Origin: an uncultured Spirochaetota bacterium
GTDB taxonomy: Bacteria > Spirochaetota > Brachyspiria > Brachyspirales > Brachyspiraceae
Direction: 5' to 3'
DNA length: 64,000 nt
Assembly (NCBI GenBank): GCA_944390575.1
Contig: CALXQJ010000002.1
Coordinates: 124,001-188,000 of the forward strand
The notes beneath the pieces are model-generated. The model had not been told where the DNA came from. It did not search any database and was given only the letters and a program-made list of their open reading frames with translations. Both the position numbers and the translations under genes were made by a program. Below, one piece after another: positions 55,028 through 62,347 of this stretch (positions are counted from its first letter, which is position 1; each line of letters opens with the position of its first letter).

Positions 55028-56638
55028 TTATTGTATATATTTACTTAAACACTTTTCTACACTTCCAGTATTTTCTATCATTTCTTTGAAGTAACTTTCT
55101 ATTTTTTTAGCAAGTACTGTATCATATAAATTAACACCAAAAATATTTTTATTTGAAAGTATAGACTCTAAATTATTATTTATACTATTTATATCTTTAA
55201 ATTTTATTTTTGAAATATAGCTTTGTAATTCTTCAAGCATAGGATCGCTACTAATCTCCATTTTTTCACCATTATCATCTATAGCCATTAAGTATCTAAG
55301 CCAAGCTGATATAGTTAAAGGTATTGCTACTAATGTAGAAAGATCATAATTATTTTCTATATATGATTTAATAGTTTCCCCAAATCTAACAGGTATTTTT
55401 AATGATGTGTCTGTAGCTATTCTTTTAGGGGAATCTGGTATAAATGGATTTGTTAATCTTTCTTCTATTACCTCTTTTAGAAAATCTTTAGGATTTATGA
55501 TTTTAGGATCTATAACTACTTTCATTCCTTCTTCATATCCTATTTTTTCTATTAATTTTTTTAGTAATGGATTTTGTAATTCTTCATATATGAAATTATA
55601 ATTTAGTAAACATCCAAATATAGCTAGAGAAGTATGTAATGGATTTAGACAAGTAGTTACTTTCATCTTTTCTGTTTTCTGTACAGTATCTCTATTAGTC
55701 ATAAATACACCAGCTTTTTCAAGAGGCATTCTTCCATTAGCAAAATTATCCTCTATTACTAAATATTCAGGATATTCAGCATTGACAAATCCAGATTGCT
55801 TATTATGACCTACTTGAAATATATTCATATCTTCTAAGCCTAAATCTAATAATTGTTTTGAAATTATTTCAGAAGGTCTTGGAGTTATTTTGTCTATCAT
55901 ACTAAGAGGATATGATACTTTATTATTTAAATACTCTATAAATGTATTTTCTACAAATCCTTTTTTGCTCCATTCATTTGCTATACTAATTACAGCATCT
56001 TTTAATTTATCTCCATTATTAGCACAATTATCAAGGCTTAATAATGATAATGGATATTCTCCATTTTTAAATCTTTCATATAATAAAGCTGTTGTTATTG
56101 ATATTATATTTTTTGATTTTTTAGGATCATTATTAATATCTTCTTCTATATTTTTATTATATTCTCCATTTGTGTTTTTTATAGAATATCCTTTTTCTGT
56201 TATAGTGTAGCTTACTACTTGTAGCGACTTGGATGTAAAAATTTCTTTTAGCTTATCATAGTAATTAATAAAATCTGCATGAAGTATATCTGTAATACTT
56301 CCTATAATTCTTTTATCTATATTTCCATTACTATGAATTAATGCTAGTAGAGTTAGATTATCAAAGTTTTTATATACTTTTTCTACTATTTCATAATCAT
56401 CATCTCTACCTGTGGCATGTGTGTCTACAGCTATAATTCCAGTATCTACTAATTTATCATTTAATAGATTATCAACTATTTTAGCTATATATCCTCTAAA
56501 TATATTTCCAGCACCAAAATGTATCCAAGTAGGATTTTTTTTAGTGTTTTCTCTTATTTTTTCTATATTATATAGAGGTACTTTTATATTTAGACTTTGA
56601 ATTTTATCTACATTATTTATAAATGTTTTTAGTGTCAT
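55028..56638 (-). CDS. uxuB: fructuronate reductase (mannitol dehydrogenase family)
   Basis: Reduces D-fructuronate to D-mannonate with NADH. 536 aa. NAD region WIHFGAGNIFRGYIA near the N-terminus, PKRIATDTS and CLNPLHTSLAIFG. AAGGAGG precedes the start. Placed between the transporter genes and uxuA. A tagaturonate reductase is possible by family alone, but the uxuA neighbour decides for UxuB. Confidence 0.93.
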   Translation of the reverse strand: MTLKTFINNVDKIQSLNIKVPLYNIEKIRENTKKNPTWIHFGAGNIFRGYIAKIVDNLLNDKLVDTGIIAVDTHATGRDDDYEIVEKVYKNFDNLTLLALIHSNGNIDKRIIGSITDILHADFINYYDKLKEIFTSKSLQVVSYTITEKGYSIKNTNGEYNKNIEEDINNDPKKSKNIISITTALLYERFKNGEYPLSLLSLDNCANNGDKLKDAVISIANEWSKKGFVENTFIEYLNNKVSYPLSMIDKITPRPSEIISKQLLDLGLEDMNIFQVGHNKQSGFVNAEYPEYLVIEDNFANGRMPLEKAGVFMTNRDTVQKTEKMKVTTCLNPLHTSLAIFGCLLNYNFIYEELQNPLLKKLIEKIGYEEGMKVVIDPKIINPKDFLKEVIEERLTNPFIPDSPKRIATDTSLKIPVRFGETIKSYIENNYDLSTLVAIPLTISAWLRYLMAIDDNGEKMEISSDPMLEELQSYISKIKFKDINSINNNLESILSNKNIFGVNLYDTVLAKKIESYFKEMIENTGSVEKCLSKYIQ

Positions 56639-56659
56639 TTATTTACCTCCTTAAATATA

Positions 56660-57961
56660 TTAATTTAATAATCCTGCAGATTTTGGTAGGAATAAACTGA
56701 TAGCAGGTACAAAAGTTATTAGTAATAAAATTATAATAAGCACTATAAAGATAGGTATCATTTTAGGTACAACTTCTTCTATCTTTTTACCAGTTAATGA
56801 ACAGCCCACAAACAATGCATTTCCTACAGGTGGAGTCATTAATCCTATACATAAATTAAATACCATCATAATACCAAAGTGTACAGGATGCATTCCTAGT
56901 TGTTTTACTATAGGCAAGAAAATAGGTGTAAATATTAATACAGCAGGAGTTAAGTCTAAGAAACAACCTACTATTAGTAATATAAAATTAATAATTAATA
57001 AAATTATAATAGGATTTGTAGATATGGATAATAGAGTATTTCCTACTAACTCTGGTATTTTAGAGAAAGATAATACCCAAGACATTATTGAAGAAGCTGC
57101 AACCAAAAATAAACATACACCAGAAAGTATTATAGTATCTTCTACTATTACTTTTATTTTTTGAAAGTTTAGATTTTTGTATATAAATGATAATACTAAG
57201 CTATATACTGCAGCAACACCAGCAGCCTCTGTTGCAGTAAATACTCCTTTTACAATTCCTCCAATAACAACTACAACTAAAAGTAAACTTGGAAATGCTC
57301 GCCATACTATTATTAGTTGTTCTTTTAAAGGTATCTTTTCTACCTCAGTTTTTTTATCTGTTTTATTTTTAATTGAAAATATAAAACAGATAATCATTAT
57401 ACCAAGTCCCATTAAAATACCAGGTAAGTATCCAGCAAAAAATAAAGCTGCAATTGAAGTTCCTCCACTTACAAGAGAGTATACTATATATGTATTGCTT
57501 GGTGGAATTAATAGCCCTGTAGTACAAGATGTTATATTTACAGCAGTACTCATATTCATATCATAATTATCTTTTTCTTCTAATGGTGATATGATTTTTC
57601 CAACAGCAACTTCAGCAGCAACAGCTGACCCTGATAATGCACCAAAGAACATATTTGCTAATACATTAATATGCCATAGAGGATTTGGTAATTTTCTTGT
57701 AAAGAGTTTAGCAAAATTTATAAGTCTTAAAGCTAATCCTCCTGTATTCATTATAGAACCTGAAAGTATAAACAGTGGTATAGCTAATAATGGAAATGAG
57801 TTTAGAGAATTAGCCATAGATTGTGATGCTGTTAGTAGTGATAATTCAAAAGGTAAAAGAGTAAATATTACCATTATAGATGATAGTGCTATTGTTATTG
57901 ATATTGGAACACCTAAAAATAGTAATATTGTAAATGCAGTAACTAATATTATTATAGACAT
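56660..57961 (-). CDS. TRAP transporter large permease (DctM/SiaM type)
   Basis: 433 aa, about 12 membrane helices. Family signs are GSAVAAEVAVGKII (about 113-126) and MTPPVGNALFVG near the C-terminus. Together with the small permease and binding protein it imports an organic acid driven by an ion gradient. Hexuronate is the likely substrate from context. Starts 1 base after the small permease gene. Confidence 0.95.
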   Translation of the reverse strand: MSIIILVTAFTILLFLGVPISITIALSSIMVIFTLLPFELSLLTASQSMANSLNSFPLLAIPLFILSGSIMNTGGLALRLINFAKLFTRKLPNPLWHINVLANMFFGALSGSAVAAEVAVGKIISPLEEKDNYDMNMSTAVNITSCTTGLLIPPSNTYIVYSLVSGGTSIAALFFAGYLPGILMGLGIMIICFIFSIKNKTDKKTEVEKIPLKEQLIIVWRAFPSLLLVVVVIGGIVKGVFTATEAAGVAAVYSLVLSFIYKNLNFQKIKVIVEDTIILSGVCLFLVAASSIMSWVLSFSKIPELVGNTLLSISTNPIIILLIINFILLIVGCFLDLTPAVLIFTPIFLPIVKQLGMHPVHFGIMMVFNLCIGLMTPPVGNALFVGCSLTGKKIEEVVPKMIPIFIVLIIILLLITFVPAISLFLPKSAGLLN

Positions 57962-57962
57962 C

Positions 57963-58451
57963 CTATTCTCCTTTTATAATACTACTAATATTTCTACTAA
58001 TAAAGAATACTTGATAGAATGTTATTAAACATCCACTTATACTTATTACTGAATATACCAACCAAATAGGTAGAGCTAATACAGATGAAGTTTGTGTTTT
58101 TGTTACTTGAATTAATTCCATTCCACCAATTATTAATATAAGTATAGAAGATATAAGAATTAATAAATCTATTATAATTATTAAAATCTTATGTACTCTT
58201 TTTGGTACTCTATCAAGCAGTATAGTTAATGATATATGTCCCTTTCTTCCAAAGGCATAACTAGATCCTAATAAGCCTAACCATATTAGTAGAAATCTTA
58301 CTAATTCTTCTGTAAAAATAATAGGAGCTTGTAGGAAATATCTATAAAATACTTGTAAAGATACACAAATTAATATTAAAGTTATTATTGCAAATAATAC
58401 TGTAAATAATACTTTATCCACAAATAATTTTACTTTATTAAAAATATCCAT
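57963..58451 (-). CDS. TRAP transporter small permease (DctQ type)
   Basis: 162 aa, four membrane helices at about 12-36, 45-64, 87-108 and 125-150. Contains FTEELVRFLLIWLGLLGSSY, typical of the family. Links binding protein and large permease. Middle gene of the dctP-Q-M set. Confidence 0.92.
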   Translation of the reverse strand: MDIFNKVKLFVDKVLFTVLFAIITLILICVSLQVFYRYFLQAPIIFTEELVRFLLIWLGLLGSSYAFGRKGHISLTILLDRVPKRVHKILIIIIDLLILISSILILIIGGMELIQVTKTQTSSVLALPIWLVYSVISISGCLITFYQVFFISRNISSIIKGE

Positions 58452-58468
58452 ACTAAATCCTTATAAAA

Positions 58469-59449
58469 TTATTCTATGCTTTTTATATAATCTATTAAGT
58501 CTTTATATTCCTTTCCTTTTTTTGCTAATTCTGTATGCATAGGTTCTATTAACTTCATAAAAGGATCTAAGTTAGGATATACTATTTTTACATTGAATTC
58601 ATTTTTAGCTCTTTCTATATTTTTATTTTCACTTTCAGCCCATAATTGAGCATAATAATCTTCTACTTCTTTTGCAGCATTTCTAAACATTTCTTTATCT
58701 TCTTCAGATATTGAATTCCAAAAAGGGGCCCCAACAGTAAGTACATCAAAAGATCTTGTTAATTCATTAACAGAGAAATTTTTAGCAACTTCTGCATGTC
58801 CAGCCTCTATAAATGATGGGAAATTATTCTCTGCTCCATCTATAACTCCTTGTTGTAAAGATGTATAAACTTCACTAAAGTTTAATGTAACAGGAGTTGC
58901 TCCAAGTCTCTTTATCATTTCTACATAAGTAGGAGAATCTTGAACTCTTATTTTTAATCCTCTTAAATCTTCTGGAGTATTTATTTCTTTAGATTTAGTA
59001 TATATGCTTCTAGCTCCAGATTCTATGTATATAAGAGTAATAAAACCCTTATCTAAACTACCTTCAAATACATCATTTACTTTTTCACTATTCATAGATT
59101 TTATATAGTGATCATGACTTCTAAATATATATGGTAAATTAAATACAGAATAAATAGGGTCGAAATTTTCTAATACTGAAGTTGTAATATGTGCAAATTG
59201 TAATACATCAGACTTTGCCAATTCTAAAGATGCTTTTTGATCTCCAAGTTGTCCAGAAGGATAAATTTCTATTATGTATTTTCCTTCACTATTATTACTT
59301 ATAATTTCTGCAAATCTTTTATATGCTAAGTCTACAGGATATCCATTTGCATGATTGTGAGATAATTTTAATATTTTCTTAGAATTATCAGAACTGCCAC
59401 ATGAAATTATAGTTATTGACAATAAAAACATTATTAATAATTTTTTCAT
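58469..59449 (-). CDS. TRAP transporter solute-binding lipoprotein (DctP type)
   Basis: 326 aa. Lipobox IISC with Cys17. Mature part has FAEIISNNSEGKYIIEIYPS, GQLGDQKASLE, then GLKIRVQDSPTYVEMIKRLG with the ligand-contacting Arg, and the VTLNFSEVYTSLQQGVIDGAEN motif. This DctP subgroup includes binders of D-glucuronate and galacturonate, consistent with the operon. First gene of the uxu operon, GGAG upstream. Confidence 0.94.
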   Translation of the reverse strand: MKKLLIMFLLSITIISCGSSDNSKKILKLSHNHANGYPVDLAYKRFAEIISNNSEGKYIIEIYPSGQLGDQKASLELAKSDVLQFAHITTSVLENFDPIYSVFNLPYIFRSHDHYIKSMNSEKVNDVFEGSLDKGFITLIYIESGARSIYTKSKEINTPEDLRGLKIRVQDSPTYVEMIKRLGATPVTLNFSEVYTSLQQGVIDGAENNFPSFIEAGHAEVAKNFSVNELTRSFDVLTVGAPFWNSISEEDKEMFRNAAKEVEDYYAQLWAESENKNIERAKNEFNVKIVYPNLDPFMKLIEPMHTELAKKGKEYKDLIDYIKSIE

Positions 59450-59470
59450 TTTTGATTACTCCTATAAAAA

Positions 59471-59486
59471 TACTGATATATTAGTA
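59471..59486. promoter_or_regulatory. candidate operator of the hexuronate operon
   Basis: Near-palindrome TACTGATATATTAGTA (one mismatched pair) just beyond the minus-strand -10, near the expected transcription start. A possible site for the GntR regulator. The identity is unproven. Confidence 0.45.
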
Positions 59487-59514
59487 TGTTAGTAAAAATA
59501 ATATTCATTGTCAA
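59486..59514 (-). promoter_or_regulatory. promoter of the hexuronate/TRAP operon
   Basis: On the minus strand: TTGACA (59514-59509), 17-base spacer, TAACAT (59491-59486), about 37 bases before the dctP-type start. Confidence 0.55.
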
Positions 59515-59561
59515 ATTTTATTTAAAATAATTTTTAAAAAACTAAAAATTATTTAAAAAGT

Positions 59562-59590
59562 TTGACAAAATATATAATTGGAATTAATAT
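59562..59590 (+). promoter_or_regulatory. promoter of the GntR regulator
   Basis: TTGACA (59562-59567), 17-base spacer, TAATAT (59585-59590). Its -35 half TTTGACAA mirrors TTGTCAAA (59508-59515) of the divergent promoter, so the two promoters face away from each other across an A-rich stretch. Confidence 0.55.
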
Positions 59591-59632
59591 CTTTAAATAT
59601 TGATAAAAGTATAATTTAATAAAAATCATATT

Positions 59633-60343
59633 ATGCCTAAAAGAAAGAATACAAGTATTAATAATATTATTTTAATAAATAAAGATAAAAATGAAGCTAT
59701 AGTAGATTATGTTGTAAGATGTTTAGAATATAATATAGTTACAATGAATATTAAGCCTGGTGTTTTTATTAGTGAACAGGCTGTTAGTGATGAACTTAAA
59801 ATTAGTAGAACCCCTATTAGGGAGGCTTTTTATAGATTAGAGAAATCGGGATTTATAGAGATATATCCTCAAGTTGGTACTATGATTTCTTTAATTGATA
59901 TTAACCTTATTGATGAAACTAGTTTTATGAGAATGGTTTTAGAAAAAGAAATAGTCAAGATTGTAATAGAGAATTTTACAGATAGTTATTATGATAAAAT
60001 AAGAAAAAATATAGATTCTTATAGTAAAAATATAAAATCCAATAATCCATATAAGCTTTTAGAGATAGATAATAAGTTTCATGAGATGTTATTTAAAATA
60101 GCGAATAAGATAAATGTTTATAACTGGCTTAAAGATTATATAAAGCATTTTAATAGGGCAAGAGTTTTTAACATATTAGAGATGGATAGAAATAGAACAC
60201 TTATAGAACATAGAGAACTTTTAGATTCTATTAAAAATCAAGATGTAAAAAAGTCTATGAATATAATAGAACATCATCTTACTAATGTACATAATGACCT
60301 TTTATTTTTAAAAGATAAGTTTCCTGATTATTTTAAGAAATAA
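59633..60343 (+). CDS. GntR-family regulator (FadR/UxuR-like)
   Basis: 236 aa. Winged helix at about 17-85 (EQAVSDELKISRTPIREAFY, then LEKSGFIEIYPQVGTMI), followed by an FCD ligand-binding domain (about 93-225) with conserved FHEMLF and HRELLDSIKNQD and metal-type histidines. No clear Shine-Dalgarno. Divergent from the hexuronate operon, so probably its repressor, released by a pathway intermediate, as for UxuR/ExuR. Ligand not shown by sequence. Confidence 0.88.
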   Translation: MPKRKNTSINNIILINKDKNEAIVDYVVRCLEYNIVTMNIKPGVFISEQAVSDELKISRTPIREAFYRLEKSGFIEIYPQVGTMISLIDINLIDETSFMRMVLEKEIVKIVIENFTDSYYDKIRKNIDSYSKNIKSNNPYKLLEIDNKFHEMLFKIANKINVYNWLKDYIKHFNRARVFNILEMDRNRTLIEHRELLDSIKNQDVKKSMNIIEHHLTNVHNDLLFLKDKFPDYFKK

Positions 60344-60352
60344 ATATAGTGC

Positions 60353-60381
60353 TTGATTTTTTTGATTATGTGTAGTATTAT
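60353..60381 (+). promoter_or_regulatory. candidate promoter of rpsB-tsf
   Basis: TTGATT (60353-60358), 17-base spacer, TATTAT (60376-60381). It lies just after the GntR gene and about 215 bases before rpsB, giving a long leader transcript. Confidence 0.5.
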
Positions 60382-60384
60382 AGT

Positions 60385-60573
60385 AGTACCGATTTTTATT
60401 GGTAAACTTTTCCATAATAGCGAAACGCTTAAAAAACTATTAAAAAAATAAGCGTTGTTACTTTTAGTAATAAAAGCATTATGAACTATTTTTATTAGAA
60501 TATTTTATTATAATACATATAAATAATAGTAAATATGGATATAGGGTACCTTTTTAATAAATCGGTACTCTAT
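60385..60573 (+). promoter_or_regulatory. structured rpsB leader with mutually exclusive pairings
   Basis: Untranslated leader with several helices. Hairpin A: TACCGAT (60387-60393) with ATTGGTA (60398-60404). Hairpin B: AACGCTTA (60424-60431) with TAAGCGTT (60449-60456). Hairpin C: ATAGGGTACC (60541-60550) with GGTACTCTAT (60564-60573), ten pairs with one G-U, then T-rich sequence and the AAGGA site. The 5' segment AGTACCGATTT (60385-60395) is exactly complementary to AAATCGGTACT (60559-60569), the right arm of C, so the 5' end could undo hairpin C. This fits an autoregulatory or attenuation leader for ribosomal protein S2. Inference. Confidence 0.6.
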
Positions 60574-60595
60574 TTTATTTTAAAGGATATGTGTT

Positions 60596-61402
60596 ATGGC
60601 ATTACCAGTTATGAAAGACCTTTTAGAGGCAGGAGTTCATTTTGGACACCCAACAAGAAAATGGGATCCTCGTATGAAACCATTTATCTTCCAAGAGAGA
60701 AATGATATTTACATCATTGACCTTATGAAAACTCTTACTTATGTTAAGAAAGCACACGAAGCTGTTAAAGAAATGGCTCGCAATGGTGGGAACATTTTAT
60801 TTGTAGGTACTAAAAAGCAAGCATCACAGTCTATTAAAGAAGCTGCTGAGAAATGTGATATGTATTATGTTAATAATCGCTGGCTTGGTGGTATGCTTAC
60901 TAATTTCTCTACTATTAAAAAGAGTATTGCTCGTTTAAAGAGAATAGAGAAAGAAGAGGTTGATGGTACTTTTGATAAATTACCTAAGAAAGAGGTTATA
61001 TTACTTCTTAAAGAGAAAGAAAAGTTAGAGAGAAACTTTGCTGGTATTAAGGATATGGAAAGTTTACCTGATATGTTATTTGTTATAGACTCATTACAGG
61101 AGCATTTAGCTATTTCTGAGGCTCGTAAATTAGGAATACCTATTGTTGCGGTTGTAGATACTAATTGTAACCCTGAGTTAATAGATTATCCTATACCTGG
61201 TAATGATGATGCTATTAGAGCTATTAACTTATTTGCTGGTGTTGTATCTTCTGCTATTATAGAGGGACAAAATGAGGCTGGTAAGGAGACATTATCTAAG
61301 AGTGATACTTCTTCTACTATAGAGGAGGAGGTATTTGATAATAGTGCAGAGGAGCATTCTGAGGCTATTGCTGAGCAGTATGGTCTTTCTGACAAAGAAT
61401 AA
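60596..61402 (+). CDS. rpsB: 30S ribosomal protein S2
   Basis: Small-subunit protein, 268 aa. Family signatures [20 protein letters not shown] (about 8-27), [27 protein letters not shown] and the C-terminal [12 protein letters not shown] region. The acidic Ser/Glu tail is longer than in E. coli. AAGGAT precedes the start. In operon with tsf, 43 bases apart, behind a structured leader. Confidence 0.98.
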
Positions 61403-61445: not shown

Positions 61446-62291
61446 ATGGCTGTAAGTATGGAGCAAATTAAAGAGCTTAGAGAGAAGACTGGTGTTGGAC
61501 TTATGGAGTGTAAAAAGGCTCTTTCTGAGACTAATGGTGATATTGAAGCTTCTATTCGTCTTTTAAAAGAGAGAGGAGCTATTACTGCTGCTAAGAAAAC
61601 TGATAGAGAAGTTAAAGAGGGTTCTATTGGTTTTTATATTAATGATGCTAAGAATGAAGTTGCTTGTATAGAATTACATTGTGAGACTGATTTCGTTGCT
61701 AAGAATGAGTTATTTGTAAATCTTTCTAAGGAGATTGCAAAAATTAGTGCTTCTGTTGATAATGCTTCTGTTGATAGTGTATTAAACTCTAAGGGTGCTA
61801 ATGGAGATACTGTTCAGGCTATGATTACTGAGGGTATTCAAAAGTGGGGCGAGAATACTGTTTTAGCTTCTGTTAAGGCTATGAAGACTGATGGTTTTTT
61901 TGGTTCTTATGTTCATTTTAACAATAAGCTTGTTACTATTGTTGAGTTTAATGTTAAGCCTAATGATAAGTGTTTAGAGATTGCTAATCAAATAGCTATG
62001 CATATTGCTTCTGAGAAACCTCTTGCTTTAAATAGAGAAGGTGTTGATGCTGCTGCTGTGGCTGAGCAGAAAGAGATTTTTGCTAAACAAGTAGAAGATA
62101 AGCCTGAGAATATGAGAGAGAAAATTATAGAAGGTAAGATGAACTCTTGGTATTCTGAGAGCGTTTTAATAGACCAAAAATTATTTACAGATAATAAAGT
62201 TACTATTAAAAGCTTAGTTGAAGAGATAGGTAAAGAAGCTGGTGCTACAGCTGAGATAAAGAGCTTTTCTATTATTTCTTTAGGTGTTTAA
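61446..62291 (+). CDS. tsf: translation elongation factor Ts
   Basis: Nucleotide-exchange factor for EF-Tu. N-terminal UBA-like domain with LREKTGVGLMECKKALSE, the TDFVAKNE motif (about 79-86) and the core with KPLALNREGV. 281 aa. AAGGAT precedes the start. Followed by a strong terminator that ends the rpsB-tsf operon. Confidence 0.98.
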   Translation: MAVSMEQIKELREKTGVGLMECKKALSETNGDIEASIRLLKERGAITAAKKTDREVKEGSIGFYINDAKNEVACIELHCETDFVAKNELFVNLSKEIAKISASVDNASVDSVLNSKGANGDTVQAMITEGIQKWGENTVLASVKAMKTDGFFGSYVHFNNKLVTIVEFNVKPNDKCLEIANQIAMHIASEKPLALNREGVDAAAVAEQKEIFAKQVEDKPENMREKIIEGKMNSWYSESVLIDQKLFTDNKVTIKSLVEEIGKEAGATAEIKSFSIISLGV

Positions 62292-62312: not shown

Positions 62313-62347
62313 AAAGTGAAGTGCTTTAAAAGTGCTTCACTTTTTTA
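62313..62347 (+). terminator. terminator of rpsB-tsf
   Basis: AAAGTGAAG (62313-62321) with CTTCACTTT (62335-62343), 13-base interior that can pair further, then a T run. Confidence 0.88.

Follow-up and report, generated by a model that had tools for sequence, protein, structure and literature searches.

How do the Brachyspirales adjust the production of ribosomal protein S2 and of the elongation factor EF-Ts encoded beside it? The window analyzed here, a stretch of 64,000 nucleotides from a Brachyspiraceae contig, carries rpsB behind a leader in which an earlier note had seen a short 5′ segment complementary to a terminator-like hairpin just ahead of the ribosome site, and had suggested a lineage-specific leader with mutually exclusive folds. 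The reading we favor, at a probability of roughly two in three, is that this leader is an autoregulatory rpsB-tsf transcription attenuator, peculiar to Brachyspirales, in which S2 would bind at a three-way junction and promote termination.

Layout and transcription start of the rpsB leader

The leader extends on the forward strand from its promoter to the rpsB start at 60596. Its elements follow one another, from 5′ to 3′, as a hairpin (P1), a three-way junction (P2-P4), an AU-rich spacer, a terminator-like hairpin with its U-run (T), the AAAGGA ribosome site and rpsB (Table 1), and its folding is more stable than that of shuffled sequences, with a z-score of about −3. The rpsB gene of the window is 86-88% identical to that of other Brachyspira, and searches with it recovered rpsB loci throughout the spirochaetes. 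The next gene is one that we take to be tsf, judging by its sequence and by the order in which rpsB and tsf usually occur. Upstream of rpsB, open reading frame translations point to a TRAP transporter-like set, a sugar-acid dehydrogenase and a divergent GntR-type regulator (55028-60343).

A TTGAC-like −35 and a TATTAT-like −10 element were found ahead of all 27 distinct leaders, including those of a second family described below. In each of these leaders (27/27), 6 to 9 nucleotides separate the end of the −10 from the first base of the 5′ strand of a long-range helix (LR); in two of the 27 rows the scan chose an earlier hexamer, but these rows do contain the same element, as TAATAT. Because the conserved −10 ends 6 to 9 nucleotides ahead of the first paired base, we place the transcription start near A60388, which would make the LR strand the extreme 5′ end of the transcript. 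The earlier note was right to caution that a start near 60388 would trim the 5′ segment: the first three of its 11 bases (AGT, 60385-60387) lie upstream of the inferred start, hence outside the transcript, and are not conserved. Nor would such a start fall downstream of 60404, which the note had regarded as speaking against its reading.

Table 1. Features of the rpsB leader and operon (window positions).
Feature	Positions	Strand	Details and basis
Sigma-70-type promoter	60353-60381	+	−35 TTGATT 60353-60358, 17 bp, −10 TATTAT 60376-60381; consensus scan
P1, 5′ hairpin, anti-antiterminator part	60388-60403	+	ACCGAU:AUUGGU; paired in 22/25 leaders, MAFFT register
LR 5′ strand (antiterminator)	60388-60416	+	ACCGAUUU, UUA, GGUA, CU, UCCAUA; duplex energy, permutations
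Three-way junction closed by P2	60413-60483	+	Covariance model R1 and covariation
P3	60424-60456	+	AACGCUUA 60424-60431 with UAAGCGUU 60449-60456; compensatory changes
P4	60457-60471	+	GUUACU 60457-60462 with AGUAAU 60466-60471; three pairs with compensatory changes
LR 3′ strand	60534-60566	+	UAUGGA, AG, UACC, UAA, AAAUCGGU; overlaps both arms and loop of T
T, intrinsic-terminator-like hairpin and U-run	60541-60581	+	AUAGGGUACC:GGUACUCUAU 60541-60573, U-run UUUAUUUU
Shine-Dalgarno AAAGGA	60582-60587	+	Kept in Brachyspira leaders
rpsB (30S ribosomal protein S2), putatively controlled gene	60596-61402	+	ORF
tsf (EF-Ts, presumed), second operon gene	61446-62291	+	ORF, 43 nt after rpsB
Evident operon terminator after tsf	62313-62343	+	AAAGTGAAGTGCTTT...AAGTGCTTCACTTT and U-run; −14.9 kcal/mol

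A long-range helix that excludes the terminator-like hairpin

The pairings from which the earlier note had started hold on the sequence: AGTACCGATTT (60385-60395) is the exact reverse complement of 60559-60569, ATTGGTA (60398-60404) can instead pair locally with TACCGAT (60387-60393), and the hairpin arms ATAGGGTACC (60541-60550) and GGTACTCTAT (60564-60573) are followed by TTTATTTT and AAAGGA. Exact 11-nucleotide complements with four or more G/C were absent from all dinucleotide shuffles of 60353-60595 (0/2000), and an 11-nucleotide complement of any kind occurred in 162 of the 2000. The long-range pairing itself proved real, and its extent had been underestimated. Under constrained folding, nucleotides +1 to +29 pair with the LR 3′ strand, the ACCGAUUU:AAAUCGGU helix being continued by GGUA:UACC, CU:AG and UCCAUA:UAUGGA. 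The duplex of this strand with the T region reaches −22.5 kcal/mol, against −10.9 ± 2.8 kcal/mol in shuffles. When LR is formed, both arms of T are destroyed, as expected from the mutually exclusive pairings proposed earlier.

The hairpin T has an energy of −11.5 kcal/mol in the window and of −8.9 to −15.0 kcal/mol in relatives other than the leader L107. On the forward strand of 52-64 kb, it is second only to the hairpin that follows tsf, which is evidently the own terminator of the rpsB-tsf operon and marks its end. A T-like hairpin with a U-run lies within 60 nucleotides of the rpsB start at 35 of 36 Brachyspirales loci (27 distinct leaders, some of them duplicates) and before rpsB at none of 68 other spirochaete loci. 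The sole exception is L107, where the hairpin is kept and is followed by AACUAUAAGG, without a U-run. Its stem is very different and AU-rich, and termination may therefore have been lost in this leader, or its output changed.

The conserved pairing core of LR reads (A/G)CCGAUU:A(A/G)UCGG(U). In the MAFFT alignment, the inner helix CCGAUU:AAUCGG shows no two-sided changes within Brachyspiraceae, where one side only varies, and conservation alone therefore cannot prove this helix; a cross-lineage strand-permutation test was used in place of inner-helix covariation. Cognate LR strands from six lineages ranked first among 720 re-pairings, with a mean of −22.9 kcal/mol versus −14.6 kcal/mol off the diagonal, in a test that cancels simple composition effects and whose lineages are not fully independent, L107 being related to L108 and L110 to L111. 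The cognate pairing ranked 4/5040 in another species set, and the two halves of LR taken alone ranked 12/720 and 7/720. The strands have diverged together: in L107, UUCUAC:GUAGAA replaces the CCAUAA:UUAUGG of Brachyspira, while CCGAUU and AGUCGG are retained though the P1 partner and the entire outer stem of T differ. L109 has UUCCUU.GC:GC.AAGGAA in this part of the helix, and the second family has CCAA:UUGG or CCCA:UGGG together with GGUGU:ACGCC and CUC:GAG.

A conserved three-way junction between P1 and T

The two further hairpins mentioned in the earlier note are present, and they turn out to be the P3 and P4 arms of a closed three-way junction, a larger structure than had been described. 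Both are enclosed by P2, in which CAUAAU(A)GC (60413-60421) pairs with GCAUUAUG (60476-60483). With the structure fixed on the leader alignment, 96% of cells are paired, and nine pairs carry two-sided changes in 23 cells, compared with 2.6 pairs and 4.7 cells in shuffles (0/500) and with one to four pairs in slid controls. Together with the co-divergence of the LR strands, this is the covariation in related genomes that had been proposed as a check. Most of the nine pairs sit in P3 and P4; four pairs of P3 show compensatory changes (C-G/U-A in 8 cells, G-C/A-U in 2 cells, and others). At the junction, the residues RAAA, UUGU and AUMAAAG vary hardly or not at all, which suggests a specific binding site. 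P1 takes the form ACCG:CGGU in L109 and AUGUCC:GGGCAU in L107.

Distribution in the Brachyspirales

Leaders of rpsB were drawn from 31 genomes of the class and from a public genome collection. Wherever the rpsB start of a Brachyspira is intact on a contig, the same leader was found, as it was in sister genera (L107, L108, which is the same as L034, and L109). A search of 393 genomes with R1, a covariance model of P1-P4, gave one confident match per genome, at rpsB, in 26 Brachyspiraceae genomes; outside this family it returned only three weak matches, in other spirochaetes (E 0.14-0.97), which we take as chance. The confinement of confident matches to Brachyspiraceae, along with the Rfam results given below, agrees with the lineage-specific leader class that had been suggested.

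R1 found no match in the second family, represented by L110 and L111 in two genomes. Only P1, LR and T are recognizable there and the P2-P4 junction is not, from which it seems that the sensor of this family was replaced or altered beyond recognition. The middle of the leader differs from that of Brachyspira in both L110 and L111, which share GGUGUAAUAAUUGU and AAGCA.

Energetics and proposed mechanism of the switch

The two competing folds are close in energy. The energy gap between the most stable LR fold and the most stable T fold is 0.4-3.4 kcal/mol in 21 Brachyspira leaders and 0-1.7 kcal/mol in L107-L111; L024 is an outlier that favors LR over T by about 5 kcal/mol. P2 and LR have the strand CCAUAAU in common in Brachyspira. 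When P2 was forced in 25 leaders, the mean cost of LR over T rose from 0.6 to 4.1 kcal/mol, a shift of about 3.5 kcal/mol toward T; in L107, L108 and L109, forcing P2 barely altered the LR/T balance in the model. When the transcript is cut off past the 5′ arm of T, folding without constraint gives a more stable structure than folding with P2 forced, and in L003 and L016 the free folds contain a part-formed LR. These partial-transcript folds imply that, unless something such as a bound protein holds P2 in place, the antiterminator can start while T is still incomplete.

The leader thus shows the features by which attenuators are recognized, namely, a terminator-like hairpin, an antiterminator exclusive with T, and P1 and P2 helices that share strands with LR. 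We regard a conserved RNA switch before rpsB as real and well supported, and it is very likely an attenuator. Its conservation throughout the order makes it probable that the cell relies on this switch to halt the production of S2 when this protein is sufficient. We infer that S2 is the ligand that binds, that transcription actually terminates at T, and that control runs in the following direction. When free S2 is scarce, the +1 to +29 strand would pair with both T arms and with the segment immediately preceding them, and this antiterminator would block T, allowing the polymerase to read into rpsB-tsf. Once in excess of its 16S rRNA sites, S2 would bind the three-way junction and stabilize P2, which would take the 5′ strand CAUAAU that LR needs too. 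With LR lost, P1 and T would form, and transcription would end in the U-run just ahead of the ribosome site.

With somewhat better than even confidence, we further propose that these leaders constitute a new order-specific, S2-responsive RNA family attenuating rpsB-tsf, in which the antiterminator begins at the first nucleotide and the switch survived when its sensor domain was replaced, LR and T persisting in the second family. Such a family would illustrate plainly how the output parts of a switch can be retained through a change of its sensor.

Signal and output of the switch

The same RNA switch might answer a signal other than S2, such as EF-Ts, an S1-S2 complex, another factor, or polymerase speed or temperature. 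This would fit the near-equal energies of LR and T without any ligand, the presence of the EF-Ts gene in the same operon, and the second family, where LR and T are found yet the junction is unrecognizable. It would also fit the junction's lack of any likeness that we could find to the S2 site of 16S rRNA. Run on loci holding Brachyspira 16S genes, R1 gave no model match (best 12.8 bits, E 0.9), and no resemblance to the junction was seen by eye in h35-37 of Brachyspira 16S rRNA. These came from other Brachyspira because no 16S rRNA gene was found in the window's own assembly (rated 99.84% complete), probably owing to an assembly gap. Mimicry of 16S rRNA is not required for ribosomal protein leaders. 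A signal other than S2 is nonetheless unlikely in our view, given that the confident matches of R1 are single in each genome and located at rpsB, that the near-invariant junction residues look like a specific binding site, and that in E. coli the rpsB-tsf operon is known to be under the control of S2 (PMC10931766).

Control could also be exerted on translation, with S2 trapping or blocking the 30S subunit and the U-run serving as a translation enhancer. Such a route is the one used by S2 in E. coli, U-rich sites can be targets of S1 (PMC10931766), and a hairpin without a U-run, as in L107, is compatible with it. However, T stops about 8 nucleotides ahead of AAAGGA, and the ribosome site is therefore outside both T and LR. 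The hairpin is also of terminator grade and, as described above, has no counterpart before rpsB in the 68 other spirochaete loci. Furthermore, the antiterminator overlaps the terminator, which is the hallmark of attenuation. These observations make translational control improbable and are better accommodated by transcription attenuation.

A peptide-coding attenuator, in which translation of a short leader frame sets the fold, was rejected as very improbable: short ATG frames do exist (e.g., the ATG at leader nucleotide 94 in the window), but their lengths and positions vary by species, none has an evident Shine-Dalgarno, the length of the leader varies through P3 indels, and no open reading frame is conserved across leaders. 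Equally hard to sustain is the view that two GGTACC-like hairpins are complementary by chance or sequence relatedness, without function; P1 and T in Brachyspira do have GGUAC-like motifs in common and the inner LR helix shows no two-sided changes, but the complementarity survives change of both strands in L107, L109, L110 and L111, and the LR permutation test contradicts it.

Relation to known ribosomal protein leaders

In E. coli, S2 represses rpsB-tsf by a translational route whose mechanism is still unclear (PMC10931766). The E. coli rpsB leader (t44, RF00127) and the rpsB motif (PMC2704228) resemble the Brachyspira leader in lying upstream of rpsB-tsf, in having a stem capped by a three-way junction and in their regulation by S2, which is presumed for Brachyspira. 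The Brachyspira leader has a terminator-like hairpin and an antiterminator, whereas control in E. coli is translational. A search of window positions 60000-60800 against Rfam with E up to 10 gave no match, t44 and L20_leader included, and leader L016 had no match to t44 up to E = 5; the E. coli leader, used as a control, scored 83.5 bits with t44, for which membership is set at a covariance-model score of at least 44 bits. The stem and three-way junction of the rpsB motif of Meyer et al. 2009 are found in P2 with P3 and P4, a likeness of topology only. In that motif, the junction between the two inner stems (J2-3) forms a pseudoknot with a 3′ extension after the outer stem (PMC2704228). No ACAA complementary to UUGU(Y) follows P2 in L003, L016 or L109, and the Brachyspira leader was not filed as a member of the rpsB motif because this defining pseudoknot was not found.

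An overlapping anti-antiterminator, antiterminator and intrinsic terminator are also found in the rplJL leader of B. subtilis, another ribosomal protein operon, where L10(L12)4 was experimentally proven to stabilize the anti-antiterminator and promote termination (PMC4538822); the operon, RNA and protein are different, and a leader peptide also acts in B. subtilis. The B. subtilis L20 leader (infC-rpmI-rplT) likewise has a terminator promoted by a ribosomal protein and two alternative folds (PMC10931766), although its RNA and protein are unrelated. The candidates of Eckert et al. 2020 are comparable as lineage-restricted ribosomal protein leaders found by conservation, and the main text of that paper names no S2 ligand or spirochaete leader (PMC7247131). 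Spirochaete S2 leaders are not mentioned in the main text of a systematic attenuator survey, and a literature search confined mostly to papers outside subscription found none on Brachyspira ribosomal protein leaders. As far as we found, the rpsB leader would be the first ribosomal protein leader described for Brachyspirales. Here, rpsB-tsf is apparently controlled by premature termination, through an RNA unrelated by sequence to the E. coli leader, which suggests that one broad regulatory logic, S2 limiting rpsB-tsf, has been reached by different RNAs.

Ten other spirochaete rpsB loci compared with Rfam gave no match to t44 or to any other leader. In many Treponema rpsB genes (among L036-L106), a short hairpin without a U-run abuts a conserved GTGAAGGAG ribosome site, and this hairpin is possibly a different, translational S2 leader.
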